64,000 nucleotides of DNA from NCBI RefSeq assembly GCF_024055715.1, contig NZ_JAMXMV010000007.1:124001-188000 (forward strand), given 5' to 3'. Position numbers and translations under genes: made by a program. The DNA comes from Actinoallomurus soli. Lineage in GTDB: Bacteria > Actinomycetota > Actinomycetes > Streptosporangiales > Streptosporangiaceae. Shown piece after piece: positions 50,154 to 64,000 of the stretch. The notes beneath the pieces are model-generated. The model saw only the letters and a program-made list of their open reading frames with translations. It was not told where the DNA came from and did no database searches. Position 1 is the stretch's first letter, and each line of letters opens with the position of its first letter.

Positions 50154-50177
50154 GCCGGGATTCTGCCTCAAAAAGGC

Positions 50178-50209
50178 GATCGCCCGGCATACTCCGATGC
50201 CGGGCGATC
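50178..50209 (-). terminator. Intrinsic terminator downstream of the LLM oxidoreductase
   Basis: GATCGCCCGGCAT (50178-50190) pairs with ATGCCGGGCGATC (50197-50209) across 6 nt. On the minus strand it is followed by a run of T residues, a rare classic intrinsic terminator in this GC-rich DNA. Confidence 0.88.
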
Positions 50210-50223
50210 AGGACGTCAGCCGA

Positions 50224-51150
50224 TCACATCTGGGGAAGGACCTCGCTCGCGATGAGTTCGAGGTGGTCCAGGTCGTCGAGGTCGAGCACCTGGAGGTACA
50301 TCCGCTGGGCACCGATCTCCCGGAACCGCCCGATCTTCTCCACGACCTCGGACGGGGTCCCGGCCAGGCCGTTCTGGCGCAGCTCGTCGACCTTGCGGCC
50401 GATCGCCTCCGCCCGGCGCGCGATCTCCGCGTCGTCCCGCCCGCAGCACACCACCTGTGCGGCGGAGAAGGTCATCGACTGGCAGGACCGGCCGCCCTGC
50501 TCACAGGCGGCCCGCACGCGCTCGTACGCGGCCTTGGTCTCGCGCAGGCCGTTGAACGGGACGTTGTACTCGTCGGCGTACCGCGCGGCCAGCCGGGGCG
50601 TCCGCTTCGCGCCGACGCCTCCGATGATCACCGGTGGGCGGGGCTGCGCCGGCTTCGGCAGCGCGGGCGAGTCCTCCAGCCGGTAGTACTCGCCGCGGAA
50701 GGAGAACGACTTGCCGGTCGGCGTCTCCCACAGCCCCGTCACGATCTGGAGCTGCTCCTCCAGCCGGTCGAAACGCTCCCCCAGGCTCGGGAACGGGATG
50801 CCGTACGCGGTGTGCTCCTCTTCGAACCACCCCGTGCCCAGCCCGAGCTCGACGCGTCCTCCGCTCATCTGGTCCACGTTCGCCACGGAGATGGCGAGCG
50901 GACCGGGCAACCGGAAGGTCGCGGCGGTCACCAGCGTGCCGAGACGGATCCGCCGGGTCTCCCGGGCCAGTCCGGCCAGGGTGATCCAGGCGTCGGACGG
51001 GCCCGGCAGACCGCTGACGTCACCCATCTTCAGGTAATGGTCAGAGCGGAAGAACGCGTCGAAGCCGTACTCCTCGGTGGCCTTGGCGACACGGAGCAGA
51101 GTGTCGTAGCTCGCCCCCTGCTGGGGCTCAGTGAAGATCCGCAGAAGCAT
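50224..51150 (-). CDS. LLM-class F420-dependent oxidoreductase
   Basis: 308 aa luciferase-like monooxygenase fold using reduced F420 or FMN. LRIFTEPQQGASYDTLLRVAKATEEYGFDAFFRSDHY at the start and GRVELGLGTGWFEEEHTAYG in the middle are typical of the F420 branch (TIGR03560 type). ATG 51150 is chosen because AGAAGG lies 9 nt away. An ATG at 51159 sits on top of that ribosome site. The substrate is unknown. Confidence 0.9.
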   Translation of the reverse strand: MLLRIFTEPQQGASYDTLLRVAKATEEYGFDAFFRSDHYLKMGDVSGLPGPSDAWITLAGLARETRRIRLGTLVTAATFRLPGPLAISVANVDQMSGGRVELGLGTGWFEEEHTAYGIPFPSLGERFDRLEEQLQIVTGLWETPTGKSFSFRGEYYRLEDSPALPKPAQPRPPVIIGGVGAKRTPRLAARYADEYNVPFNGLRETKAAYERVRAACEQGGRSCQSMTFSAAQVVCCGRDDAEIARRAEAIGRKVDELRQNGLAGTPSEVVEKIGRFREIGAQRMYLQVLDLDDLDHLELIASEVLPQM

Positions 51151-51195
51151 GGCACCCATCCTTCTACTCCGCAGCCGTCCAATGCACTATTTGGT

Positions 51196-53232
51196 CTAGA
51201 CCTCTTCGCCGCGCCGCGTCCGGCCGATCCACACCAGGAGGAGGCCGACGGAGGCGAAACCGAGCGCGGCCAACGCGACCGTCCCGTACGGGAAGCCGGT
51301 GTGCGGCAGGCGGCGGACGCCCGGGTTCGGCCGGGCCGGCATCGGCCGGGCGTTGCGGGTGTGGCAGGCGACGCTGTTGTTCGCCGGGTTGTCGTCCGGC
51401 GTTCCGGACGCGACCGTGCTGAGGCAGCGGAGCCTGCCGGGGCGGGCGTGCGGCCGGGCCCGCACGGTCAGCCGGAGCTTGCGGGTCCGGCCCGGCGGGA
51501 TCGCGCCGAGGGGGCAGACGAATCCCGGTCCCTGCGTCAGGCAGTGGCGGCCCTTACCGATCACGATCGGGGTGTCCGCGCCCGCACCGGGCCGCTCCGG
51601 CGCGATGCCGGGCCCGATCGGCGCCTCGGCCGGACCGCTGCGATGGATGCCGCTCTCGGCCGGGGCCTCCTTGCCGGGCGCACCCGCGACGCGGGCCGGG
51701 GACGGCGCGCCGCACGGCGGAGCGACGGGGCGATCGGTGAGGTCCGCGGCCGGGCCGTTCGGCGCGGAGCCGCACGCCGGGACGTCCTGCCGCCCCGCGC
51801 AGGCGCCGCACGCCGGGGCGTTCTGCCGGTCCGTCTGCTGTCCCGCGCAGGCGCCGCAGGCCGGGACGCCCTGCTGCTCCGCCGGCCGCCCCGCGCACGC
51901 CCCGCACGCCGGCCTCGCGGCCGGAACGTCCGCCGCGGGAGTGCGCGTCTCCGGCCGATCCGCCGCGGCGCCTTCCGCCGCCGGTCGCCGCACCGCGCAG
52001 GCGCCGCACGTCTGCCCGGCCGGTCGCGGCTCCGAGTCAGGCCGCAGCACGTGCGGCCGGTCCACCGTCGCGCCCTGCGCGCCCGGCTGCTGTGCCGCGC
52101 ACGCGCCGCACGCCGGCTGCCGTCCCTCCGCTCCGCAGCGGGGAGCGGAGGCCGGATGCGCCTGAGCCGCCGCGCACGGCGGGACGGCGGCCGCCTGGCC
52201 GTCCGAGGCCGGCCTGTCCTGCGTGGACCCGCAGAGCGGGTCGGTGGGCTTGAGCGGGGCGCTCTTCCCGGCGAGCGGCCGCACGGGATCCGCCGTGGGC
52301 GCGCAGGGCCGCGTGCCCGGGTCCTCGGACCGCACGCCCGGATCCGTCGTCAGGGGTTGCGATCCCGGTCCGCTCGGCCACGCGTCCGGGTCGTTCGCCA
52401 CCGAGCTGCGGACGACCACCGCCTCGGCGGTCACCGGGCCCTCGTTGGTCACGGTGATCTCGTAGGGGACCTCTCCCCCCGGCCGTACGATCTCCGGCAG
52501 GTCGTCACCGGTGACCGCCAGGTCGGTGGGCTGCGACGCCGTGACCGGGGGGAAGGCCATCTCCCGCGTCGTGGAGCCCGGCCGGCCGTCCCAGGAGATC
52601 CTGGCCGGGCTGGACAGCGTCCGGCCGTTCGGCGTCCTGGGGTCCACCGTCGCGGTGAGGCCGCCGTGCCTGGTCTGCCGGCCGGGGAGGACGCCGATCC
52701 GGCAGATGAGATCCCGTCCGTGCCACCCGCACTTCGGCGGCAGGGCGATGATCTTCAGGTCGTGGTTCGGCGTCGTCGTGAGCGTGACGTTCCGCACCGG
52801 CGCCGAGCCGGTGTTCGTCACCGAGTACGGCCAGGTGTACGTCCTGCCGGGCACGACGGCGCTCTGCGGCGCCCGGGTGTCGAAGATGATCTTCGGGCGC
52901 GGCGGGATCAGCCCCTTCTCGTCGCGTGCTCCCCCCGCCGGACGGTGGTCCCGGCCGGCGGCGTCGTGGTTCCGGTCCGACGATGCCCCGTGCTGCGATG
53001 CGGGATCGCGATCACCGTCCGCGAGCTCGTACTCCCGGCCTCCGGGGCGTGCGCCGCGCTCCCGCCCCGCGGCCCGGTGGTCGTGTGCGCGCGCCGATGG
53101 GCCGCCCGGCCCGTCGGCGTGCGCGGGTTCATGCGACGTGAGCTGCGGCATGATCGTGAAGCACGAGACGGCCGCCGCCGCCGCGATGCCCCGGGTTCCG
53201 GCACGCGTGGCGCGGCCAGAGAAGTCGATCAT
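51196..53232 (-). CDS. Sortase-anchored surface protein with DUF11-like domains and a cysteine-rich insert
   Basis: 678 aa. A signal peptide ends near PAHADG (about 41). A low-complexity charged region follows, then a DUF11-like beta domain (YSVTNTGSAPVRNVTLT onward). A second one (PYEITVTNEGPVTAEAVVV) is interrupted by a 260-residue insert. The insert holds five CGACA motifs within larger PACGACAG units, spaced 16 residues in the clearest run. The domain resumes at IVIGKGRHCLTQGPGFVCPLG. The C-terminus carries the sorting signal LPHTG (642-646), a membrane segment and RTRRGEEV. ATG 53232 preferred over an earlier 53301 start. The Cys-rich units could form disulfides or bind metal. Neighbours give no clue. 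Confidence 0.85.
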   Translation of the reverse strand: MIDFSGRATRAGTRGIAAAAAVSCFTIMPQLTSHEPAHADGPGGPSARAHDHRAAGRERGARPGGREYELADGDRDPASQHGASSDRNHDAAGRDHRPAGGARDEKGLIPPRPKIIFDTRAPQSAVVPGRTYTWPYSVTNTGSAPVRNVTLTTTPNHDLKIIALPPKCGWHGRDLICRIGVLPGRQTRHGGLTATVDPRTPNGRTLSSPARISWDGRPGSTTREMAFPPVTASQPTDLAVTGDDLPEIVRPGGEVPYEITVTNEGPVTAEAVVVRSSVANDPDAWPSGPGSQPLTTDPGVRSEDPGTRPCAPTADPVRPLAGKSAPLKPTDPLCGSTQDRPASDGQAAAVPPCAAAQAHPASAPRCGAEGRQPACGACAAQQPGAQGATVDRPHVLRPDSEPRPAGQTCGACAVRRPAAEGAAADRPETRTPAADVPAARPACGACAGRPAEQQGVPACGACAGQQTDRQNAPACGACAGRQDVPACGSAPNGPAADLTDRPVAPPCGAPSPARVAGAPGKEAPAESGIHRSGPAEAPIGPGIAPERPGAGADTPIVIGKGRHCLTQGPGFVCPLGAIPPGRTRKLRLTVRARPHARPGRLRCLSTVASGTPDDNPANNSVACHTRNARPMPARPNPGVRRLPHTGFPYGTVALAALGFASVGLLLVWIGRTRRGEEV
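51765..52116 (-). repeat. Coding repeat: CGACA cysteine motifs inside the surface protein
   Basis: Residues about 373-490 of the surface protein carry CGACA five times plus related CGS and CGAP units, three of them in a regular 16-residue (48-bp) period reading PACGACAG. Outside the region other Cys residues are sparse. Confidence 0.85.
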
Positions 53233-53424
53233 CGGTGTCCCCCGTGACGTGCTCGGATGCTTTCGACAACGCCCCGTTGTAACGGACCCCCGGATGGCCA
53301 CCTAGCAGCGTGTCGGCGTGTCGTCACAATACGTGATGGTAAAAACCTAGGCGATCATGCAGAGATCACGACGCGCCCGGACACACGGCGATAGTTTTCG
53401 ATCACCCCGACTTAGGAGCCGACC

Positions 53425-53640
53425 GTGCCCGAGAAGAAGGTCACCGCGGCCGCGATCGCCGGTGCCGTCGTGACCATCGTCGTCTGGATCCTGCGCCTCT
53501 CCCACGTCGACGTGCCGGCCGAGGTCGCGGCGGCCGCGACCACGCTGTTGTCCGCCGTCGCCGGTTACCTCGCCCCGCACACCCATCGCCCGGACCTGGA
53601 GCCGCCGGCGGCGACGCAGCCTCCTCCCGCCACGCGCTGA
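53425..53640 (+). CDS. Small membrane protein, holin-like
   Basis: 71 aa. GTG 53425 with AGGAG seven nt upstream. A basic start (MPEKKVTAA) is followed by a hydrophobic segment IAGAVVTIVVWILRLSHV, a helix rich in Ala, a second hydrophobic stretch LLSAVAGYLA, and a Pro-rich tail. The shape (two membrane segments and a GYLAP block) resembles short holin-like proteins of actinobacteriophages. No phage genes lie nearby, so it may be a domesticated remnant or a cell-envelope protein. Confidence is moderate for being a gene, low for function. Confidence 0.6.
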   Translation: MPEKKVTAAAIAGAVVTIVVWILRLSHVDVPAEVAAAATTLLSAVAGYLAPHTHRPDLEPPAATQPPPATR

Positions 53641-53688
53641 CCGAGGCCCGCCACGCGCTGACCGAGGCCCGCCACGCGCTGGCCGAGG
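53626..53688. repeat. Three tandem 21-bp repeats after the small membrane protein gene
   Basis: Units CCCGCCACGCGCTGACCGAGG at 53626-53646, 53647-53667 (identical) and 53668-53688 (one change). The stop codon of the gene lies in the first unit. The copies look like recent slippage. Confidence 0.9.
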
Positions 53689-53716
53689 CGCGGCCCCAGG
53701 AGGCCGCCGCCCGTCC

Positions 53717-54088
53717 TCACAGGCCCATGCGGTCCTCGCAGGCCGGGCAGGAGGCTTCGAGGTAGCGCACGGGGAGCTGCTCCTCGTTCCACTCGATCGA
53801 CGCCAGCACTCCGCAGCCGAAGCACACCGCGCACAGGCCGACGCCGGAGAGGGCCTGCCGTACGGCGACCAGCAGCCGGCTGGGCGGCAGGCCGCGGATG
53901 ACCTCGTCCACCTCGTCGCGCGTGCAGCGGATGCGGATGTGCCCCGTCCCCTCGCACTGCGGGCAGTCCCCCAGGCGCAGCAGAGCGGGGTCCTTCTGGA
54001 TGGTGACCAGCTCGCCGCTGCCGATGCACATCTGGCACGGCATCACGATCCCCTGGAACGCACCGTCGCCGATGGTCTCGTCGCTCAT
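53717..54088 (-). CDS. Small DnaJ-type zinc-finger protein
   Basis: 123 aa from the ATG at 54088 (AAGGGGGG upstream). Two exact CxxCxGxG units occur, CQMCIGSG and CPQCEGTG, as in the central domain of DnaJ. Two further CxxC pairs follow, CAVCFGCG and CPACEDRMGL. No J domain, no signal. Probably binds two zinc ions and acts as a small chaperone-like or adaptor protein. The true partner is unknown. Many actinomycete genomes carry similar small proteins with no assigned role. Confidence 0.75.
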   Translation of the reverse strand: MSDETIGDGAFQGIVMPCQMCIGSGELVTIQKDPALLRLGDCPQCEGTGHIRIRCTRDEVDEVIRGLPPSRLLVAVRQALSGVGLCAVCFGCGVLASIEWNEEQLPVRYLEASCPACEDRMGL

Positions 54089-54341
54089 GCGCGGTCCCCC
54101 CTTCACGGCACCCCGTCCACCGGCCGCTCGGTCCGGGCACCGGATCGACCCGGCCGGACCCTCACCTGCCAGCTTCCTCCACCGAGAGCCTCGGCACCGC
54201 CGGTTTTCCGAGGTCACCCACCACTGGAACCGCGCGAACCACCTCTTTCGGGAGAAGCCGACTGGTATTCCAGCGACATTTCGCGATCATGGTTCGGATC
54301 TGCGCTGAGACGCCTCAAGATCACGAAGTGTCACTGGAGTA

Positions 54342-55718
54342 CTAGATCGTGTCGAGCGGAAGGTCGTTGGTGCGCGGGCCGAGTGTTCGGACCGCGACGG
54401 CCATCACCACCAGCAGCAGGGCGCAGCCGGCGTAGAGGCCGCCGGACCCGACCGCGGACAGCAGCAGGACGGCGCCGAACGGCAGCATCGCGCTGATCAA
54501 CCGGGACGCGGCGTACGGAATGGCGATGGAGGTGCTGCGGTTCGCGGTGCGGAACAGTTCGGTCTGGTAGATGTGCACGAAGTTGGACTGGATGATGGTG
54601 CTGACCGTGGTGGCGATGCCGGCGGCGATCACAACACCGGCGTTGGTGCCGAGGCCGAACACGACGCCGAACACGGCCGCGGCCAGGGTCGACGCGACCA
54701 CCAGGGCGCGGCGCTCGAACCGCTCGGTCAGCCAGACGGACAACAGGGAGCCCAGCGGGTAGCCAATGGCCGTCAGCGCCGCGTAGGTGAGCGAGTTCGA
54801 GAGGTTGAACCCCTTGGACTGTAGGACGATCGGCGCGATCGAGGCGAAGGCGTAGAACCCGACCGGGGTGAAGATCCACATCAGCCACATCAGCAGCGAC
54901 CGCCTCCGATACCTGCCTGGGTCCTGCCGCACTGGCGCGGGCGCGACGGGGACGGGCTGGTCGACCGGTGCCCCGGTTCGCCGTTCGATCGACGTGAGGA
55001 TGTCGTCGGCCGCCGCGGTCCTGCCGACAGCGGCCAGCCAGCGGGGCGACTCGGGCAGGCGACGGCGCGCCGACCACACGAGCAGACCGCCGCCGGCCGC
55101 CAGCATCGGCAGCCAGCGCCAGCCGGCCATGCCGAGCACGGGCCCGGTGACGAGCTTGGCCAGCACACCGGCCACCGGAACGGCGGTGAGCCCGAGGGTG
55201 TAGCTCCACGCGATGTACCGGCCCCGCCACGGCGCGGGCAGCAGCTCGGACAGGTAGATGTCCAACAGCGTCAGCTCGGCGCCCAAGCCGACCCCGGTGA
55301 GCATGCGCAGGAGGAGGAACGCCGACAGGTTCGGGGCGAACGCGGTGGCCAGCGACAGGACCGCGTAAGCGACCAGGTTGATCTGGAACAGCGTGCGGCG
55401 GCCGAACCGGTCGGCCAGCGGCGCCAGCAGCAGCGACCCCAGCGTCTCCCCCACGAACGCCGATCCGACGACCATTGACTTGTCCACAGTGGTCAGGGAC
55501 CACTGGGTGCCGAGCAGGACGCCGAAGAAGCTGCCGAGGGCGACTTCGAAGAAGCAGAAGAACGCGCCCAGTCCGATCAGGACGGCCATTCTGCGGTGCC
55601 ATCGGGATATCGGCAGCCGGTCCATGCGGTCGCCGATCGTCAGTGATGGGAGGTCGGGCCGGTCGGTGTCCGTGTCCCGGTCAGGCATGCCACCCGGCGT
55701 GGGCAATGGCTCTGTCAT
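54342..55718 (-). CDS. MFS transporter (sugar-porter/aromatic-acid symporter-like)
   Basis: 458 aa, 12 hydrophobic segments. DRFGRRTLFQ after the second segment and PESPRWLAAVGR before the central loop are typical of the sugar-porter/PcaK/NiaP branch that brings in organic acids or sugars with protons. ATG 55718, AGGA upstream. Last gene of the cluster, 18 bp after the MMPL gene, so probably the uptake system for the compound broken down by the hydantoinase-type enzymes. Confidence 0.88.
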   Translation of the reverse strand: MTEPLPTPGGMPDRDTDTDRPDLPSLTIGDRMDRLPISRWHRRMAVLIGLGAFFCFFEVALGSFFGVLLGTQWSLTTVDKSMVVGSAFVGETLGSLLLAPLADRFGRRTLFQINLVAYAVLSLATAFAPNLSAFLLLRMLTGVGLGAELTLLDIYLSELLPAPWRGRYIAWSYTLGLTAVPVAGVLAKLVTGPVLGMAGWRWLPMLAAGGGLLVWSARRRLPESPRWLAAVGRTAAADDILTSIERRTGAPVDQPVPVAPAPVRQDPGRYRRRSLLMWLMWIFTPVGFYAFASIAPIVLQSKGFNLSNSLTYAALTAIGYPLGSLLSVWLTERFERRALVVASTLAAAVFGVVFGLGTNAGVVIAAGIATTVSTIIQSNFVHIYQTELFRTANRSTSIAIPYAASRLISAMLPFGAVLLLSAVGSGGLYAGCALLLVVMAVAVRTLGPRTNDLPLDTI

Positions 55719-55736
55719 GGGAGACTTCCTGTCAGG

Positions 55737-57896
55737 TCAGGCGCCGACCGGTTGTTTCGTGACGGTCGGCGGTTCCGGTGCGTTGGTCGGCGGAACACGG
55801 AGCAGGCGGGCCAGTCGGTCCGGTAGCCACCAGTTCCAGCGGCCCATGAGCGCCACCAGGGCGGGGACGAGCAGGGTGCGCACCACCAGCGCGTCGACGA
55901 GGATGCCGAAGCCCAGGCCGGTGGCGATCATTTCGACGACGACGTCCGGGGCACTGGACAGTGAGCCGAACGAGATGCCGAGGATCACCGCGGCACAGGT
56001 GACCAGCCGTCCGGTGCGGGCCAGGGCGCCGACGATCGCGTTATCGGTCGATCCGGTCCGGTCGTACTCCTCGCGCGTCCGGGCGAGAATGAAGACCTCG
56101 TAGTCCATGGACAGTCCGAACAGGAACGCGAACGACAGGATCGGGATCCAGTTGCGGATCGAACCGGTCGCGGCGACGCCGTAGAGCAGATGCGAGCCGA
56201 TGCCGTACTGCCAGAAGACCACGAGGAAGCCGAAGGACGCGCCGAGTGAGACCACATTGAGCACGACCGCCTTGACCGCCAGGACGACCGAGCGGAACTC
56301 CCTGGCCAGCAACAGGAACGTGAGGACCGCGATCACCGCGAGAACCAGCGGGAAGTTGCCGTACACCGCCGTGGTGAAGTCGGAGTTCTGTGCCGTGTTG
56401 CCGCCGACTTCGACGCCGCCGGGCACGCCCGCGAGGGCGGTGCGCAGCCGTGCGACGGTCGCGACGCCGGCCGACGTGCTGCCCTCGTCGGTCGGGATCA
56501 CGCTGATCAGCGATTCGCCGCCGTGGCGGAACGACGGCGTCGCCGGTGCGAGAACCGTGTAGACGCCGGGTGTCGCGGCGGCGATGGCCGCAGCGCGGTC
56601 GGCGGCGACCGGTCCGCCGTGGGTGAGCAGTTGGATCGGGAAGGTGACCGCGCTGGGCACCCCGCCGGCCTCCAGGTTGTGCAGCGTGACGGCGGGTGAC
56701 GCGGCGCCGCCGAGTGAGTTGGCGCGTGGCTGGCCGGTGTTCATGACGAGCGCGGGGGCGGCCAGCCCGAGGAGGATGACGAGCCCGGCGATGGCGGCGA
56801 TCCAGCGGCGGCGCACGATCATCCCGGTCCATCGCTGCCAGCCTCGGCTGAAGGTCGTCGAGCCGCGCCGGACACGGTGCCGGTCCAGCATGGGGCCGCA
56901 GGTGGCCAGGAGAACCGGCAGCAGGGTGGTGGCCGCGGTGATCGCGACCAGCGGGATGAGCATGCCGGCCAGACCGAGGCTGCGCAGGAACGACACCGGA
57001 AGAATCACCAGCGCGAGCAGTCCGATCGCGACGGTGAGCCCGCTGAGCATGACGGCGCGTCCCGCCGTGGGGCTCGCCGCGATGATCGCCTCCTGATTCG
57101 ACTTGCCCGCCTCGCGTTCCTCGCGCCAGCGGGTGACCAGCAGCAGCGAGTAGTCGACGACCACGCCCAGCCCCATCACCGCGACCAGGTACTCGGCGAG
57201 GAAGCTGACGTCGGTGAATCGCTCCAGGCCGAAGATGAGCAGGAAGGTCGTCAGGATCGACGGAATCGCGATCAGCAGCGGCACGATCGCGATCGCCGAA
57301 CCGTACACGAACAGCAACACCGCCAGGGCGCCCACCGCGCCGATGACGGTTTCGACCAGGACGCTGGGATTGCCGCCTTTGCTGGGGCCGGTGCTCTGGA
57401 GCTGCTCGAATCCGGTGACCGAGACGGTGACACCGGCGGGTGCCGCTGCCTTCAGAGCCGGGTCGATGCGGTCCATGACCCCGGCCCCGGACGGGATGTC
57501 GGGGTTGGGCATGTCGAAGACGGCCCAGGTCGTCCGGTGGTCAGCGGAGATCAGTTCGGGGTTGTGGGTGTTCGCGTAGTCGGCGACCGCGAGATGCCCG
57601 GCCCGGTTGGCGGCCGCGAAGGTCCGGGCCGCGATGTTCTGGCCGGCCGCGGTGTCCATGCCCGTGCCGGCCGGCAGTGTCAACACGGCGAGCGTGGGCT
57701 GCTCGTTGCCGTCGATGCCGAACGTCCGCAACAGGTGCAGGTTGGTGTCGTAACCGGACATCCCCGGCGTCGCGAAGGAGTGGGTCAGCCGGTTGACCGC
57801 CGGTCCGGTGGCCAGCGCGCCGACGACGGTGAGCGCCAGCCAGGCCAGCACGATCCAACCTTTGTGGCGCAAACAGAATCGAGTGACTCCATGCAT
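55737..57896 (-). CDS. MMPL/RND-family transporter
   Basis: 719 aa. Two repeated halves each with a membrane segment, a large outer loop and five more segments, as in MmpL/HpnN proteins. VVVDYSLLLVTRWREER and LFGLSMDYEVFILARTREEYDRTGS are the conserved fourth-segment motifs with proton-relay Asp/Tyr pairs. ATG 57896 chosen; GTG at 57914 and 57938 are alternatives because the only good ribosome site (AAGGAAGGGG) sits near 57914. It lies in the middle of the catabolic cluster and may export a lipid or toxic intermediate. A hairpin precedes it. Confidence 0.88.
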   Translation of the reverse strand: MHGVTRFCLRHKGWIVLAWLALTVVGALATGPAVNRLTHSFATPGMSGYDTNLHLLRTFGIDGNEQPTLAVLTLPAGTGMDTAAGQNIAARTFAAANRAGHLAVADYANTHNPELISADHRTTWAVFDMPNPDIPSGAGVMDRIDPALKAAAPAGVTVSVTGFEQLQSTGPSKGGNPSVLVETVIGAVGALAVLLFVYGSAIAIVPLLIAIPSILTTFLLIFGLERFTDVSFLAEYLVAVMGLGVVVDYSLLLVTRWREEREAGKSNQEAIIAASPTAGRAVMLSGLTVAIGLLALVILPVSFLRSLGLAGMLIPLVAITAATTLLPVLLATCGPMLDRHRVRRGSTTFSRGWQRWTGMIVRRRWIAAIAGLVILLGLAAPALVMNTGQPRANSLGGAASPAVTLHNLEAGGVPSAVTFPIQLLTHGGPVAADRAAAIAAATPGVYTVLAPATPSFRHGGESLISVIPTDEGSTSAGVATVARLRTALAGVPGGVEVGGNTAQNSDFTTAVYGNFPLVLAVIAVLTFLLLAREFRSVVLAVKAVVLNVVSLGASFGFLVVFWQYGIGSHLLYGVAATGSIRNWIPILSFAFLFGLSMDYEVFILARTREEYDRTGSTDNAIVGALARTGRLVTCAAVILGISFGSLSSAPDVVVEMIATGLGFGILVDALVVRTLLVPALVALMGRWNWWLPDRLARLLRVPPTNAPEPPTVTKQPVGA

Positions 57897-57986
57897 GGGA
57901 GGCAGTCTGGCCACCCCTTCCTTACAGAAGGCTTTCACCTGCCTTTTCGTCCCTCTGGCTGGTGGCCATCACCCTGCATGCCGTCC

Positions 57987-58008
57987 CGCACCGCCTCGAA
58001 GCGGTGCG
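57987..58008 (-). terminator. Small hairpin between RraA-like and MMPL genes
   Basis: CGCACCGC (57987-57994) pairs with GCGGTGCG (58001-58008) across 6 nt in the 141-bp gap, the only real gap in the cluster. It may weaken read-through into the MMPL and MFS genes. Confidence 0.5.
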
Positions 58009-58037
58009 ACTCGCCGTCGGTCGGGTGAAAACCGCGT

Positions 58038-58715
58038 TCAATGACGCACCCGCCGAAGCCGCAGCAGTTCCTCGACACTGAAATCGGCGGACCGAGACCA
58101 GGTGACGATGTTCTGCTCCTCTTCGCGAATTTCCTCGGCTTTCGCAAGGATGCCGGGGATCGCTTCGGTCGGGATGTTCAGCACGCCGTGCTCGTCCCCG
58201 TGCAGGAGATCACCCGGCCGGACCGTCAGACCGGCGACCGTGACGTCGGTGCCCACGTCGACCAGCCGCATATGAGAACGGGCGACGCACAGGCCGGTGG
58301 CGTACACCGAGTAGGGAAATGTACGAAGCTCATTGACATCCCGGACCCGGCCGTTGGTGATCAGACCCTGGATGCGTAGTGCGGCCAGCAGGCTGCCATT
58401 GACCTCGCCCAGGAACGCGCCGGCTCCGGCAGGATCGTCGCGGTCTTCCAGGACGACGACGACCGGACCGTCCGTCTCCGCGATCGCGCGGTGCAGTTGG
58501 GAGACGGGGATGCCGTCCTCGCCCGCGTCTCGGGCGACCATCCGGGCGGTGACCGCTCGCCCGACCATCGGCGCGGCTCCGGTGACCCGGCGTACAGAGC
58601 CGTTGGTGTAGCCCGCGTTGTACGACCGCAGGCGCAACGCGTCCAGTGCGTTGCTCAGCGCCGGGGTGTCCCAGGCGGCGAGCGCCTCGATCAGTTCGGG
58701 GCTGGTGGCCGTCAT
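58038..58715 (-). CDS. RraA-family protein (4-hydroxy-4-methyl-2-oxoglutarate aldolase / oxaloacetate decarboxylase type)
   Basis: 225 aa. GAFLGEVNGSLLAALRIQG, GLITNGRVRDVNEL and LLHGDEHGVLNIP are the RraA/HMG-aldolase fold motifs, with the Arg-Asp pair binding the metal and pyruvyl group. This family cleaves 4-hydroxy-2-oxo acids or decarboxylates oxaloacetate, and some members are RNase E inhibitors in proteobacteria. In a catabolic cluster the aldolase/decarboxylase role is more likely. 18 bp after the hydantoinase A gene, same transcript. Confidence 0.85.
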   Translation of the reverse strand: MTATSPELIEALAAWDTPALSNALDALRLRSYNAGYTNGSVRRVTGAAPMVGRAVTARMVARDAGEDGIPVSQLHRAIAETDGPVVVVLEDRDDPAGAGAFLGEVNGSLLAALRIQGLITNGRVRDVNELRTFPYSVYATGLCVARSHMRLVDVGTDVTVAGLTVRPGDLLHGDEHGVLNIPTEAIPGILAKAEEIREEEQNIVTWSRSADFSVEELLRLRRVRH

Positions 58716-58733
58716 ACGGTCGCTCCTTCGGTG

Positions 58734-60812
58734 TCAGGCGGCATCGGTGATCAGGTCGATGACCAGGTTGAGATGAGGGTCGACGGTCACCGTGCAGTCG
58801 GGGCCCACGGCACAGGACGTTTCGCGTTCCTCGAACAGCACCGGGCCCGCGAAGGTCGTGCCGGGCTGGAGCGTGTATCGGTCGTACACGTCGACGTCGA
58901 GCACACCGAAGCCGGTGAAGTACACCGCTCGTCGTCCGCGTGCCGCCGCCGTTGGCGACGGCTGGTAGGCCAGGCCGACCTCGGTGGCGGAAAGGCGGGC
59001 CGACATTCGCCAGTTGATGAACTCGGGTGTGCCGTCGCGGATGGTGCGGCCGAACACCGACCGGTAGGTCTCCACGAACGCCTGTCGGATGTCGTCTTCG
59101 TGGCCAGGGCCGAGCATGCCATCCGGTAGCGCGACAGTGATCTCGAAACCCTGTCCCACGTAGCGCATGTCGGCAGTCCGGGTGATGACCGGATCGGCGG
59201 TGGTGGACCGCTGCAGGAGTCGCCGCGCCCGGGTTTCCATGTCCGTGTACAGGGTGGTGACCTTGTCCCAGTCGACGGCGGTCAGCGGGACCGGATATCC
59301 ACGGACGTCGTCCACGGTCGGGGCGGCCACCAGAAACCCGAACGCCGACATGACACCGGCGCCGGCCGGGACGATGACCCGCGGGATCTTCAGGCTCTTG
59401 GCCAGTGCGTAGGCATGCACCGGACCAGCGCCGCCGAACGCCATCAGGGCGTATCGCCCGGGGTCCCGGCCCCTCTCGGCAAGGTGCATGCGGGTGGCGG
59501 CCGCCATGTTCTCGATGACCACATCCTGGATGCCCACGACCGCACTTGGCGCGTCGACACCGAGCCGGTCGGCGAGCGCGTGAACGGCGCGCTGCACATC
59601 GGGCAAGGTCAGGGCCAGGTCGCCGCCGAGGAAGTGGTCCGGGTCGAGGTATCCGGCCAGCAGGTCCGAGTCGGTGACGGTCGGCTGTCGACCACCCCGC
59701 CCGTAGGCGACCGGTCCCGGCACCGAACCGGCGCTGCGCGGTCCCACCTTCAGCAGCCCGAGATCGTCCACGGCGGCGATCGATCCGCCGCCGGCGCCGA
59801 TCTCGATCATGTCGACCACCGTCATCCGGAGCGGGAGTCCCGAGCCGGGCCGGAACTTCTCCGTTCGGCCGGCCTCGAACTCGTGCTTGATGTGCGGACG
59901 TCCGTTCTCGACGAGACACATCTTGGCGGTGGTGCCGCCCATGTCGAAGGAGATGACCCGGGGCTCGTGCGCGGCGGTGGCGAGGAATGCGGCCGCGATC
60001 GCCCCGGCCGCAGGCCCCGACTCGAGGAGCCGAACCGGAAACGCCTTGGCCTGGTCGATGGTGGTGATGCCGCCCCCGGACACCATGATGGACAGTTGCC
60101 CGGTGAATCCGATGCCGGCGAGTTCGTGCTCCAGTTGGTCGAGGTAGCCGTGCACGATCGGCTGGACGTAGGCGTTGACGCACGCGGTGTTGATGCGTTC
60201 GTACTCGCGGATCTCCGGTGCGACATCCGCCGACAGCGTGATCAGCAGATCGGGGAACATCTCGTGCACCAGGTCGCGGGCCCGGATCTCGTGCGCCGGA
60301 TTCGCGTACGAGTGCAGGAACGCGATGGCCAGCGCGTCTATGCCGGACCCGTGCACCAGGCTGCGGGCGGCCTTGAGCACCGCCTCCTCGTCCAACGGCT
60401 TGTGCTCGGTGCCATCCGCCCGCATGCGGCCCGGCACGCCGTGCCGCAGGTGCCGGGGCACGATGGCCGGGGCGGGGCGGGCGTGCAGATCCTCGGCGTC
60501 GAAGCGGATCTCGCGCCCCATCTCCAGGATGTCGCGGAACCCTTCGGTGGTGATCAGTCCGACGGTGGCCCCGGTGCGCTCCAGCACGGTGTTGGTGATC
60601 AGAGTGGTCCCGTGCACCACACTGTCGACCCGATCGATCGCGGTGCCCGTGTCGGCCAGCAGTTGGCTGATTCCCTCGACGATGGCCCGGTCGGGTGCCT
60701 CGGGAGTGGTCAGTCGCTTGCCGATCGCGGTGACGCCGAGCGCCTCGTCGTGCAGGACGAGGTCCGTGAACGTGCCACCGACGTCGACGCCGATTCGTGC
60801 GGTCCGGTTCAC
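58734..60812 (-). CDS. Hydantoinase/oxoprolinase A subunit
   Basis: 692 aa. N-terminal actin-like ATPase motif GVDVGGTFTDLVL and VHGTTLITNTVLERTG. The central domain contains VSGGGITTIDQAKAFPVRLLESGPAAGA and the second phosphate motif FDMGGTTAKM. The C-terminal part matches acetophenone-carboxylase/N-methylhydantoinase A. With the B subunit it uses ATP to hydrolyse a cyclic amide or to carboxylate a ketone. The exact reaction cannot be told. The ATG at 60812 overlaps the stop of hydantoinase B by 4 bp. Confidence 0.92.
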   Translation of the reverse strand: MNRTARIGVDVGGTFTDLVLHDEALGVTAIGKRLTTPEAPDRAIVEGISQLLADTGTAIDRVDSVVHGTTLITNTVLERTGATVGLITTEGFRDILEMGREIRFDAEDLHARPAPAIVPRHLRHGVPGRMRADGTEHKPLDEEAVLKAARSLVHGSGIDALAIAFLHSYANPAHEIRARDLVHEMFPDLLITLSADVAPEIREYERINTACVNAYVQPIVHGYLDQLEHELAGIGFTGQLSIMVSGGGITTIDQAKAFPVRLLESGPAAGAIAAAFLATAAHEPRVISFDMGGTTAKMCLVENGRPHIKHEFEAGRTEKFRPGSGLPLRMTVVDMIEIGAGGGSIAAVDDLGLLKVGPRSAGSVPGPVAYGRGGRQPTVTDSDLLAGYLDPDHFLGGDLALTLPDVQRAVHALADRLGVDAPSAVVGIQDVVIENMAAATRMHLAERGRDPGRYALMAFGGAGPVHAYALAKSLKIPRVIVPAGAGVMSAFGFLVAAPTVDDVRGYPVPLTAVDWDKVTTLYTDMETRARRLLQRSTTADPVITRTADMRYVGQGFEITVALPDGMLGPGHEDDIRQAFVETYRSVFGRTIRDGTPEFINWRMSARLSATEVGLAYQPSPTAAARGRRAVYFTGFGVLDVDVYDRYTLQPGTTFAGPVLFEERETSCAVGPDCTVTVDPHLNLVIDLITDAA

Positions 60813-62488
60813 GTTTCAGGCACCGGCCTTTCTGCTCGTATCACGGCATCCGTGCCGTAGTCGCGGATCGCGGCTTCCTGGGTGATGAACCCTTCACGCA
60901 GGTCCGCGGCGATGGCGGCCCGGTCGCGGCCGGCGGGCGGCCCGTACCCTCCTCCGCCGGCGAAGGAGATGGTGAGGCCGCCACCGGGTCGCACCACGGA
61001 CACCGATTTGAGGGCGCGTACCGCGCCCTCGTCGTCGACGACTCGCGCCACCGCACCCGGCAGCCCGCCGTTGACACCGAGGGCCGGATGCTCCGAACGG
61101 TCGCCGAGCAGCACGACCCGCAGCGGAGCGTCGGTCGTGTTCCTGACCTCGATGTCCTGGCCGAGGCCGCCGCGATGAGTGCCGGCCCCACCGGAGTCGG
61201 CGCGGAACTCCTTCTTCTCGAACAGCAGCGGCGCGCTGGATTCCAGGGCCTCGATGCTGCCTCCGCCGGAGTTGGTCGGGAACGCGGTGGTGGGCAGGCC
61301 GTCATGCGCCGCGCCCGCGCCCATCCCGGCGCTGGCGAACAGCAGCAGCGCGAACGGCTCGCCCGTCGGCGTACGGCCGGAGAACTGCACCCGCAGTGCG
61401 GGCGCCCCACCGCTGTCGGCGATCACCCGGTCCGGCAGCACATCGGCCAGGGCGCGATACACGGCGCAGGACAGCAGATGACCGGTCAGATGCCGGGCCA
61501 GAACCGGTGCGGGGAAGACGGGGTTGAGGATGGAGCCTTCCGGCGCGGTCACCCTGATCGACCGGTACGAACCGTGGTTGCTGCGGGTGAACGGATCGAG
61601 CAGGATCTTCAGTGGATAGATCGAGTACGCGGTCGTGTAGTTGAGTGTGCAGTTGATCGCGTAGTCCACCTGCGGTGAGCTGCCCGTGTAGTCGACCACC
61701 ATGTCCTCGCCGCGAACGGTCACCGCGCACTCGATGTGGGTGGGCTGTCCGAGGACGCCGTCCGCCTCGGTGACGGATCGGTAGGTCCCGTCGGGGATGG
61801 CGGCGATCGCGCGCCGCATGCCGCGGTCCGCGGTCGTGTGCACCGCCGTGGACAGCGCGGCGAAGTCGGCCTGGTCGGTGTCGCGGAGGAATTCCACCGC
61901 GCGGCGGCGGCAGACGTCGTTCGCAGCCATCTGGGCTTCGAGGTCGCCCCAGACCTGACCGGATAGCCGGACGTTGCTCAACAGCAGCGTGATGAGCGCG
62001 TCATTGCGCGTGCCGGCACGCTGGAGGTGCATGGGTGGGATGAGCAGTCCCTCGGACATCAGGTCGGTGACACCCATGCCAGGATTGCCGCCGATGTCGG
62101 GCACGTGGGCCGCGGTGCCGGTGAATCCGACCAGCACGCCACCGTGGAAGATCGGGGTCACCATGGCGATGTCGGGCAGGTGCCCGGTGCCGATCCACGG
62201 GTCGTTGGTGATGACGATGTCACCATCGCACCAGGTCTCGACCGGGAATCTCTCCAGCAGACGCCCGGTGAGCACACTCATCAGCGCGGCGAAGGCCGGG
62301 ATTCCCGCTCGGCATTCGGCGATCGTGCGGCCCGACCGGTTCATCAGCACGACGGTGTAGTCGTTGGACTCGCGGATGATCGTCGAGAACGCCGTGCGCA
62401 GCAGGGTCGTCGCCGCCTCATCGGTGACCGAGACCAACCGGCTCCACCACACCTCGAGCTTGATGGGGTCGAACCCGTCAGTCGTCAC
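60809..62488 (-). CDS. Hydantoinase B subunit
   Basis: 559 aa. The start IKLEVWWSRLVSVTDEAATTLLRTAFSTIIRESNDY, then GDIVITNDPWIGTGHLPDI and GGGSIEALESSAPLLFEKKEF are the hydantoinase-B signatures, including the metal-site Asp/His. Ends with FAGGGGYGPPAGRD. Coupled by overlap to both the DUF4387 gene (11 bp) and the A subunit (4 bp). Confidence 0.93.
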   Translation of the reverse strand: MTTDGFDPIKLEVWWSRLVSVTDEAATTLLRTAFSTIIRESNDYTVVLMNRSGRTIAECRAGIPAFAALMSVLTGRLLERFPVETWCDGDIVITNDPWIGTGHLPDIAMVTPIFHGGVLVGFTGTAAHVPDIGGNPGMGVTDLMSEGLLIPPMHLQRAGTRNDALITLLLSNVRLSGQVWGDLEAQMAANDVCRRRAVEFLRDTDQADFAALSTAVHTTADRGMRRAIAAIPDGTYRSVTEADGVLGQPTHIECAVTVRGEDMVVDYTGSSPQVDYAINCTLNYTTAYSIYPLKILLDPFTRSNHGSYRSIRVTAPEGSILNPVFPAPVLARHLTGHLLSCAVYRALADVLPDRVIADSGGAPALRVQFSGRTPTGEPFALLLFASAGMGAGAAHDGLPTTAFPTNSGGGSIEALESSAPLLFEKKEFRADSGGAGTHRGGLGQDIEVRNTTDAPLRVVLLGDRSEHPALGVNGGLPGAVARVVDDEGAVRALKSVSVVRPGGGLTISFAGGGGYGPPAGRDRAAIAADLREGFITQEAAIRDYGTDAVIRAERPVPET

Positions 62489-62837
62489 GGCCGCGGCCCT
62501 TCGTGATCAGGTCATCATCTTCCGTGGGCGGTACGACGACGCCGGCCAGCGGGACGTGGTGCTGCCCTGCGTGCATGTCCCGGTCGTGCAGGCCGCCCTG
62601 CACCACCGGGCGGGGGAAGGACACCTTGACCACGCACAGGTCGGGAATCCGGAAGATCCGCAGCGACTCCGCGGCGACGTGGTACAGCTCGCTGATCAGT
62701 TCGGCGGTGATGAGGGCGTCCGCGATCCGATAGGTCCGGTCGTCGGGCATGAACGCCTCGAGGGTCAGCCAGAACGGGCCGGCGTTCTTCGACCGCACCT
62801 CGATCGCGAGCTCGCCCAGCGTGCTGGAATCCGTCAT
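62478..62837 (-). CDS. DUF4387 protein
   Basis: 119 aa from the ATG at 62837 with GGAGGT 6 nt upstream. Full-length DUF4387: LGELAIEVRSKNAGPFWLTLEAF, ITAELISELYHVAAESL and IFRIPDLCVVKVSFPRPVVQGG near the end. No catalytic motif is known. The domain is found fused to or beside AtuA/DUF1446 proteins, as here (4-bp overlap with the upstream gene), so the two probably form one complex. Confidence 0.88.
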   Translation of the reverse strand: MTDSSTLGELAIEVRSKNAGPFWLTLEAFMPDDRTYRIADALITAELISELYHVAAESLRIFRIPDLCVVKVSFPRPVVQGGLHDRDMHAGQHHVPLAGVVVPPTEDDDLITKGRGRDD

Positions 62838-64000
62838 CGAGTCACCTCCGGCATCTCCAGGCGGAACAGTTCGGTCGGCGAATCGGTGTCGACGACGTGG
62901 TTGAGCACGAACTCGTAGGCCGCACCCCGGTCGATGTGTGCGGGCGAGGTGGCGAACGCGAAGCTGGGCAGATGGTTCATGGCCGGCGTCGGCAGGTGCA
63001 GGAGCAGCGGGTTGGCCAGCTGCGAGATCGCCGTCGCCGTCTGCTGGTCCCGCGCGTTGACCAGCAGCATCACGCCCACCTCCTGGGGCGTGGCCGGCGC
63101 CGGGTCCAACTCGCCGAGGACCGCGTTGTAGCCGTACAACCGGATGTCGGCGTCCCACTCCTCGGGCACCAGCCCCAGCACTTGGACGACCCGCTCGGCC
63201 AGCAGCTTGCGCAGCAGTCCCGCCCACTCGTCGATGCCGCGCAGCACCTGCGGGTCCCGGATGCCGACGAAGGACACCGTCTCGTATCCGGTGATCGCCG
63301 CGCCCTCCAGCTTGACCGTGTACTGCTCGGCCGGCTCGAACCGAGAACCCTCCACACGCACCACACGGTCGTTGACGGGCATGTAGCGCGCCTCGGTCAC
63401 GTCGATCGTGCCGCCGGGCTCGCGCATCCGGTACGGGTCGGCGGTTTCGTAGAGCATGTGCGCGGCCACGGACATCGGCGTGCACGACGTGTCCAGGTCC
63501 AACGGCTCGACAGTGAAGCCGCCGTGGTCGATCCGGGCGAACACGCCGCCGGAGCGCGGGTCGGTGGTGCACAAACCCCCGCACTCGATGATCTTCGCTG
63601 CGTGCCAGGTGGGACCGGGTGGCATGCCGCGCATCAGTGGGACGGCCGCGGACACGGCCGTGTCGGTCGCCCGTCCAGCGAGCACCACGTCCGCACCGCC
63701 CCGCAGCGCCTGCTCGATGGGCTCATGCCCCATCACGCCGACGATGTGCACACAGCGGTCGAGTGTCGCCCGGTCGAGTTCGATGCTGGGCGGCAGCGGG
63801 TGAATGGCACCTCGGTCGAGCGCGGGCAGCAGGGTCTCGGTGCGCTGTTCGCTGAAGATCTTCGCGACGGTCAGGTCCAGTCCTGCCTCCAGGCAGATCC
63901 CGTGCACGATGTCGGCGATCCATTCCACGCCCGAGTCGGTTCCCGAGGTGCCGCAGGAGCCGATGACCAGCGGGATGCCCGCGCCACTCGCGGCCGCCAG
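62834..64000 (-). CDS. AtuA-like (DUF1446) protein, N-terminus beyond the window
   Basis: C-terminal 388 residues of a protein of the acyclic-terpene-utilisation AtuA family. LVIGSCGTSGTDSG near the right edge is the N-terminal GS-rich segment. ADVVLAGRATDTAVSAAVPLMRG and YGYNAVLGELDP are also family motifs. AtuA works in citronellol/geraniol degradation in Pseudomonas but its reaction is not established to my knowledge. Here no atu carboxylase genes are seen, and the partner genes are hydantoinases, so the pathway is different. Ends with a 4-bp overlap with DUF4387. Confidence 0.87.
   Translation of the reverse strand: MAAASGAGIPLVIGSCGTSGTDSGVEWIADIVHGICLEAGLDLTVAKIFSEQRTETLLPALDRGAIHPLPPSIELDRATLDRCVHIVGVMGHEPIEQALRGGADVVLAGRATDTAVSAAVPLMRGMPPGPTWHAAKIIECGGLCTTDPRSGGVFARIDHGGFTVEPLDLDTSCTPMSVAAHMLYETADPYRMREPGGTIDVTEARYMPVNDRVVRVEGSRFEPAEQYTVKLEGAAITGYETVSFVGIRDPQVLRGIDEWAGLLRKLLAERVVQVLGLVPEEWDADIRLYGYNAVLGELDPAPATPQEVGVMLLVNARDQQTATAISQLANPLLLHLPTPAMNHLPSFAFATSPAHIDRGAAYEFVLNHVVDTDSPTELFRLEMPEVTR

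Follow-up and report, generated by a model that had tools for sequence, protein, structure and literature searches.

The citramalate lyase CmlA/CmlB (PDB 9ERQ and 9EVF) is encoded by adjacent AtuA/DUF1446 and DUF4387 genes. Caprolactamase CapAB (6YRA) and N-methylhydantoinase (7HK5) are two-part ATP-dependent hydrolases with P1, P2, adenosine and metal motifs. The HMG/CHA aldolase, which belongs to the RraA family, is characterized by the motif D-x20-R-D, and the acyclic terpene (Atu) pathway has companion AtuC/F carboxylase genes. Relatives of the lyase, the hydrolases and the aldolase are encoded together at the end of a 64,000-nucleotide stretch of the Actinoallomurus soli genome (contig NZ_JAMXMV010000007.1, positions 124,001 to 188,000), which is referred to as the window.

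Gene order, conservation and regulation of the cluster

The cluster has the order AtuA–DUF4387–HyuB–HyuA–RraA–MMPL–MFS, with all seven genes on the minus strand, and is preceded by a regulator gene and an operator-like site:

62834-64222, minus strand: AtuA/DUF1446-family large subunit, CmlA-like, 462 residues; the window cuts the gene at 64000
62478-62837, minus strand: DUF4387 small subunit, CmlB-like, 119 residues (PF14330, 91.3 bits)
60809-62488, minus strand: HyuB, metal-binding subunit of an ATP-dependent hydantoinase/oxoprolinase-type enzyme (PF02538, 460 bits)
58734-60812, minus strand: HyuA, ATP-binding subunit (PF01968, PF05378, PF19278)
58038-58715, minus strand: RraA-like protein, possible 2-oxo-acid aldolase/decarboxylase (PF03737, 90 bits)
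55737-57938, minus strand: MMPL/RND-type transporter, 733 residues (PF03176, 244 bits)
54342-55718, minus strand: predicted MFS importer, distantly like aromatic acid/H+ symporters (PF00083, PF07690)
64328-65008, extrapolated (L002:2328-3008), plus strand: divergent GntR/FCD regulator, beyond the window end
64260-64275, extrapolated (genome C58:188260-188275): operator-like site ACTTGCTATAGCAAGT, beyond the window end

The seven genes, their families, the three overlaps and the two 18-bp gaps had been described by the sequence-only reading, and were confirmed at the same place. AtuA overlaps DUF4387 by 4 bp, DUF4387 overlaps HyuB by 11 bp, and HyuB overlaps HyuA by 4 bp; gaps of 18, 99 and 18 bp separate HyuA from RraA, RraA from MMPL, and MMPL from MFS. 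A promoter and terminator scan of positions 53200-64000 identified no promoter-like site and one terminator-like site, compared to 2.3 in shuffled sequences. Neither of the two open frames examined immediately downstream of MFS had a Pfam match.

Conservation was assessed in the best 80 of 99 confirmed actinobacterial loci, which were found using 8-residue patterns and are all at least 63% identical; they therefore do not represent the AtuA family as a whole. Companion genes were counted if DUF4387 was at most 400 bp and RraA at most 1.5 kb from AtuA, if D-2-hydroxyacid dehydrogenase (2HADH) and MFS scored above 200 bits, and if HyuA and HyuB scored above 500 bits; a 114-bit 2HADH in L081 was counted as absent. 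DUF4387 adjoins AtuA in 79 of the 80 loci, and AtuA is accompanied by MFS in 63, GntR in 61, 2HADH in 61, and ABC genes in 14. DUF4387 is present in 26 of 250 genomes of the window organism's family, and the PF14330 match is unique in the genome of A. soli.

The GntR/FCD gene is divergent from AtuA and starts after a 104-bp gap, just past the window. The earlier statement that no regulator is in view is correct inside the window, because the window ends before this gene, but does not hold past it. The sequence between the two genes contains a perfect palindrome. Its 12-bp core is promoter-placed in 64 of the 80 loci at up to two mismatches and exact in 34; 36 exact core sites were observed, whereas 0.0006 were expected. 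The site is absent from the Solihabitans locus L004 and from five Streptomyces hyuBA loci, and the GntR proteins compared are only 35–39% identical. Among the 29 exact core sites in 250 genomes, 15 are away from DUF4387. Twelve of these were inspected, in 11 stretches from eight genomes, together with a three-mismatch site in the organism's own genome. Comparison of four stretches with Pfam identified a GntR gene together with a truncated ABC transporter, a second GntR gene beside a zinc alcohol dehydrogenase, genes for cytochrome bc, and a beta-lactamase-family protein together with an enoyl-CoA hydratase. The remaining seven were compared only with the query proteins of the cluster and gave no match. 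The inspected core sites away from DUF4387 provided no hint of the substrate. The operon is probably under the control of its own divergent GntR regulator, with the palindrome as a putative operator.

The previous description of the locus as an operon-like catabolic cluster is supported. We give about even weight to the reading that the operon, with its own regulator, would import and degrade an organic acid containing or yielding a citramalate-like 2-hydroxy-2-substituted-succinate unit.

HyuBA as a recurrent accessory of AtuA loci

HyuBA is a recurrent accessory of AtuA loci rather than part of their conserved core. The association proposed from the window sequence recurs across loci, but its HyuBA part is only accessory: hyuA and hyuB are intact in 10 of the 80 loci, or in 12 if one frameshifted and one edge-cut pair are counted, and decayed HyuBA remnants are present in several others. 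L004 and L006 are the closest AtuA loci whose flanks are complete, and no HyuBA was detected within 10 kb of either. L004 contains MMPL–AtuA–DUF4387–RraA–MFS at 75–83% identity, with MMPL (83%) directly upstream of AtuA and MFS (75%) behind RraA. Such loci are consistent with HyuBA being a passenger with another substrate, while AtuA–DUF4387–RraA–MFS form the working unit. We consider this explanation rather unlikely, although it deserves serious weighing, since the overlaps of HyuB with DUF4387 and HyuA in the window, a remnant in L005, and the phylogeny of HyuA argue against it. In L005, a piece of HyuB comprising roughly its first 95 codons remains between DUF4387 and RraA, at the position HyuB occupies in the window, and therefore the gene order of the window existed elsewhere and was lost there. 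All 16 AtuA-linked HyuA rows of the 36 in a phylogenetic tree form one clade with support of 100/100, which includes HyuA of the window and spans two phyla, as Actinomycetota and Burkholderiales plasmids, and several gene orders. The tree left out partial own-genome copies (L084-L087), a broken copy (L102), decayed copies, and L069, L089 and L091 as duplicates of L090, L081 and L018, respectively.

Searches beyond the 80 loci gave a similar linkage. HyuA relatives at least 58% identical, the organism's own copy apart, were within 8 kb of AtuA/DUF4387 in three of three cases in 297 genomes, in which the best three candidates of each genome were scored, and in three of three cases among 432 plasmid records. 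Two HyuA matches at 54% and 50% (L145 and L146), on contigs of just 5.9 and 9.7 kb, have no AtuA in view and group with the unlinked rows of the phylogeny. A further search of 394 class-level genomes returned the organism's own copy alone at E 1e-190. Plasmid clusters of Variovorax (L136, L141) and Cupriavidus (L138) contain hyuB, hyuA, AtuA and DUF4387 within 7 kb, with HyuA 60–66% and AtuA 43–47% identical to those of the window. However, they have a 2-hydroxyacid dehydrogenase in place of RraA, and TctC/porin/LysR or MmgE/PrpD genes.

Predicted reactions of the encoded enzymes

AtuA and DUF4387 match chains A and B of 9ERQ/9EVF, which supports the suggestion that they form a complex and corrects their description as families of unknown reaction, as the solved relative is named citramalate lyase. 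AtuA matches CmlA at near full length (E 2e-79), and DUF4387 matches CmlB (9ERQ_B) over residues 7-100 (E 4.3e-11, phmmer). The window pair and CmlA/CmlB share the invariant motifs DxGSxDxG and RSKNxGP, and 62 columns in AtuA and 13 in DUF4387 are invariant among eight diverse pairs, including that of the window and methylaspartate-operon members. On the basis of the chain matches, the most likely function of the pair is that of a lyase, which would cut an acid of the 2-hydroxy-succinate type to release acetate and a 2-oxo acid. The structure 9EVF is titled an ADP-pyruvate complex, which suggests participation of a nucleotide in the CmlAB-type reaction, perhaps via an acyl phosphate.

The identity of the pair to CmlA/CmlB is only about 31–35%, and at this distance another 2-hydroxy acid is as likely a substrate of the predicted lyase as citramalate. 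An AtuA from an E. coli plasmid, located in a methylaspartate-fumarase cluster, matches the CmlA of the PDB over all 456 residues (966.8 bits), and a Prevotella AtuA has the same context; the name citramalate lyase therefore fits there. Fumarase or MmgE/PrpD genes also stand beside other AtuA-family members. These neighbours, and citramalate lyase being the closest solved relative, speak for plain utilisation of citramalate or a close homologue, in which HyuBA would free citramalate from an amide or imide. In contrast, the window pair is linked to HyuBA, RraA, MMPL and MFS, and the cluster contains no methylaspartate, fumarase, mesaconase or PrpD genes. Together with the moderate identity, and the fact that citramalate itself needs no ring opening, this makes plain citramalate utilisation improbable.

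Both HyuAB subunits are intact in the motifs reported previously: HyuA contains the ATP motifs DVGGTFTD, DMGGT and GSVPGP, and HyuB contains the Asp-His-Asp-His metal site, by alignment with CapB (motif definitions and CapB residues from an excerpt of PMC8453981). The closest solved chains are 7HK5 and 6YRA. The caprolactamase models scored 478 and 228 bits against NCBIfam equivalog cut-offs of 1000, and HyuB has no Cys pair at the place aligned with Cys410-Cys411 of CapB, so that HyuBA was not assigned as a caprolactamase; its neighbours are also unlike those of a pathway for caprolactam or hydantoin. The sequence examined past the window revealed no known operon for degradation of caprolactam, hydantoin or acetophenone. 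The family also includes carboxylases, and HyuBA might be a ketone carboxylase of the acetone/acetophenone type, with the lyase acting on its product. We find this very improbable: the operon contains no further carboxylase subunit, and the acetophenone carboxylase models scored 274.7, 188.3 and 119.7 bits against cut-offs of 1500, 1250 and 1500, respectively, although the caprolactamase models are also below cut-off. From the earlier alternatives of ATP-driven ring opening or carboxylation, HyuBA would thus more probably hydrolyse than carboxylate, because of the missing subunit, the low carboxylase scores and the hydrolase-type solved relatives.

The RraA-like protein keeps the Arg-Asp pair of the HMG/CHA aldolase, but a motif scan and alignment to 3NOJ showed E-x20-R-D, with Glu in place of Asp 21 residues before Arg, and scores are well below the aldolase model cut-offs. 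Arg-123 and Asp-124 of the aldolase are given in an excerpt of PMC5065237. Glu is present in all 17 RraA-like copies scanned, five of which are not beside AtuA, and is therefore not special to the cluster. RraA is beside AtuA in five of the 80 loci, none with a 2HADH above 200 bits. Since RraA and 2HADH were found together in none of the 80, they may share one pathway slot. The sequence of L005, among the five, does not extend far enough to reveal a 2HADH.

A role in acyclic terpenoid degradation has a negligible probability and was rejected, as it draws on the family name only, CmlA is a far more specific match, and no AtuC/F (whose absence had been noted before) or other Atu genes are present in the operon and flanking genes examined.

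Proposed pathway and its implications

Based on the predicted reactions, a degradation pathway can be proposed. MFS would take up the organic acid; the import role suggested previously agrees with its distant relationship to the aromatic-acid/H+ symport family, at a score below the family cut-off (TIGR00895, 151.3 against 418.55 bits). HyuBA, as its motifs suggest, would open a lactam, imide or other stable amide by hydrolysis, spending ATP. AtuA-DUF4387 would then break the C-C bond beside a tertiary alcohol, in a CoA-independent cleavage yielding acetate and a 2-oxo acid. The 2-oxo acid may be processed by RraA, or by 2HADH in most relatives, as indicated by their non-co-occurrence. MMPL is weak as a conserved partner, and is an accessory transporter at most: it scores above 400 bits in only one of the 80 loci, lies 5–7.5 kb from AtuA in L134 and L110, and is of a kind common among genomes (63 of 150 at E 1e-80).

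We tentatively put forward, as a possibility, that ATP-dependent ring opening by a dedicated HyuBA clade produces a 2-hydroxy-2-substituted succinate, in which a larger group replaces the methyl group of citramalate, and that this acid is cleaved by a CmlAB-like, CoA-free, nucleotide-using lyase, under a GntR operator shared among Actinomycetota. The lyase products would be an unusual 2-oxo acid and acetate. We speculate that the substrate could be dioxindole-3-acetate from plant auxin. Opening of its lactam would give 2-hydroxy-2-(2-aminophenyl)succinate, and cleavage of the latter would give isatinate and acetate.

A pathway combining ring opening with a CmlAB-like lyase was not found in the literature searched under the terms used. 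The searches found no paper for DUF4387, for cmlA together with "citramalate lyase", or for oxindole-3-acetate with hydantoinase; AtuA with hydantoinase gave one match, AtUAH, an unrelated enzyme according to an excerpt of the paper, and "AtuA family" was absent among the matches listed for hydantoinase or AtuA family. PMC4682846 is among the papers that mention DUF1446, as seen in an excerpt.

Genes annotated as "AtuA" and "DUF4387" occur widely, under a misleading name or none. The actinobacterial branch is now tied to a solved citramalate lyase, one ATP-dependent ring-opening clade, and a 12-bp operator-like core. These ties make a search for the substrate practical, since a reporter can be built on the operator and an assay on the enzyme pair.

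The gene cluster and its regulator

The AtuA, DUF4387, hyuB, hyuA, RraA, MMPL and MFS genes lie on the minus strand from position 54342 onwards, where the sequence-only reading had placed them, with overlaps of 4, 11 and 4 bp followed by gaps of 18, 99 and 18 bp. That reading saw no regulator, which holds inside the window but not just beyond it, where extension of the sequence revealed a divergent GntR/FCD gene. The features at the upstream end of the cluster are:

up to 64222, minus strand: AtuA gene, extending beyond the window
64260-64275 (extrapolated window coordinates), AtuA-GntR gap: putative operator ACTTGCTATAGCAAGT, inside an 18-bp perfect palindrome
64328-65008 (extrapolated window coordinates), divergent from AtuA after a 104-bp gap: GntR/FCD regulator gene

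By all signs, the cluster is a real, locally regulated catabolic operon. DUF4387 has a single match in the genome of A. soli. Hydantoinase_B has five, including a partial one that contains an internal stop, so a lone hyuB gene is not unusual. Separately, positions 50017-53301 contain long open frames overlapping on both strands, with a DUF11 match in the minus-strand frame.

Conservation around AtuA-DUF4387

The neighbourhood comparison across actinomycetes proposed in the sequence-only reading bears out the core pair. DUF4387 is next to AtuA in 79 of 80 loci of named actinobacterial AtuA relatives (63-78% identical; the best 80 of 99 confirmed). With neighbour families identified by Pfam on representatives, these loci contain MFS (63/80), GntR (61/80), D-2-hydroxyacid dehydrogenase (2HADH, 61/80), ABC transporter (14/80) and FAD_binding_2 genes (11/80, within the locus). 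The FAD_binding_2 gene directly adjoins the pair in L075, L118, L120 and others. DUF4387 is present in 26 of 250 genomes of the family and two of eight of the genus. The closest synteny is that of Solihabitans locus L004, MMPL-AtuA-DUF4387-RraA-MFS (83, 78, 76, 79 and 75% identity, respectively); MMPL is otherwise rare (>400 bits in 1/80).

We infer that the GntR protein binds the putative operator. The AtuA-GntR gap also holds a second element, GCTATAGC. The operator site occurs exactly only once in the A. soli genome, with one further site at three mismatches. Exact copies of the operator core, TTGCTATAGCAA, number 36 and fall in 34 of the 80 loci, where first-order base statistics predict 0.0006. 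With up to two mismatches allowed, the core stands where the promoter is expected in 64 of 80 loci (34 exact, 22 with one, eight with two); such a site is missing in 16, including L004, the 4-kb locus L005 and five Streptomyces hyuBA loci. Exact sites in 250 whole genomes number 29 in 23 genomes, and the reversed control gave six in four; 14 of the 29 (12 genomes) are within 6 kb of DUF4387 and the other 15 are not. The GntR proteins compared are only 35-39% identical. In L081, two-mismatch sites precede both the SBP-hyuB-hyuA-GntR and the ABC-AtuA genes, which suggests their co-regulation. The same core stands beside another GntR gene and a zinc alcohol dehydrogenase at L181:4892-6693, with AtuA not in view, and three more genomes of that genus have exact sites.

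On a Cupriavidus plasmid (L138:65-5140), a second AtuA-DUF4387 pair is near a citrate-synthase-family gene and TctC genes. In a methylaspartate-fumarase cluster on an E. coli plasmid (L147:1446-11489), the AtuA very closely resembles CmlA, a chain of the "citramalate lyase" in the PDB. This AtuA may answer the question of citramalate's fate, left open in PMC4682846.

Distribution of hyuBA and RraA

Intact hyuB and hyuA occur together in ten of the 80 loci, or 12 counting L018 (HyuB split over two frames) and L069 (where the locus ends within HyuA; L090 has the whole gene). Among 297 order-level genomes, with the best three candidates per genome scored, all three HyuA relatives of at least 58% identity, own copy excluded, are within 8 kb of AtuA-DUF4387, as are all three in 432 plasmid records. 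Around the next matches (50-51%), the pair was not found within ~8-10 kb in the five loci inspected. A tree of 36 HyuA rows places the 16 that are linked to AtuA, which come from Actinomycetota and from Burkholderiales plasmids, on one side of a branch with 100/100 support. The Burkholderiales orders are hyuB-hyuA-2HADH-AtuA-DUF4387 (L136), AtuA-DUF4387-hyuB-hyuA-2HADH-MFS (L138) and AtuA-DUF4387 followed 6 kb on by hyuB-hyuA-2HADH-MmgE/PrpD (L141).

HyuBA was not found within 10 kb of L004 and L006, and only hyuBA remnants are left in several AtuA loci, both of which count against HyuBA being necessary. The hyuBA genes appear to be repeatedly decaying next to intact AtuA-DUF4387. Remnants lie upstream of GntR in L022, L045 and L051, with weak matches in L028 and L071 and the split HyuB in L018. 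A HyuB scar of about the first 95 codons, its frame broken near the end, sits exactly between DUF4387 and RraA (L005:2309-2594); therefore, the gene order of the window was once there and then lost, unless this MAG contig of 3979 bases is misassembled.

RraA adjoins AtuA in five of the 80 loci (L004, L005, L006, L019, L081), none with a 2HADH above 200 bits; L081 has one of 114 bits, and L005 spans no more than 4 kb. The chance that five picks all fall among the 19 loci lacking 2HADH is p ~0.0005, or ~0.002 without L005, both a guide only because the loci are related. On a Variovorax plasmid RraA directly follows DUF4387, and 2HADH is not in view. The RraA-family motif is D-x20-R-D. Of its residues, PMC5065237 names Arg-123 and Asp-124. 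The cluster protein keeps Arg-Asp and has Glu in place of the Asp 21 residues before; the 16 other RraA-like copies in the scan, including five that are not next to AtuA, share this Glu.

Proposed pathway

Sites important in caprolactamase are intact here: the motifs for phosphate and adenosine in HyuA, and the Asp-His-Asp-His metal site in HyuB. Hydrolysis is favoured over carboxylation, since HyuBA has the two-gene form with no further subunit. In the most economical reading, MFS would bring the substrate in, HyuBA would open a stable amide at the expense of ATP, CmlAB-type cleavage would yield a 2-oxo acid and acetate, and RraA would then process the 2-oxo acid. For Pseudomonas AtuA, acetate release from a tertiary-alcohol acyl-CoA has been proposed; if so, this would be, by analogy, the same kind of chemistry. 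Our guess, from the title of PDB entry 9EVF, is that the lyase uses ATP to form an acyl phosphate.

Homology places the AtuA-DUF4387 core pair in a recently solved family of lyases. Here it is joined by HyuBA and RraA, a variant for which no paper was found in the literature searched.
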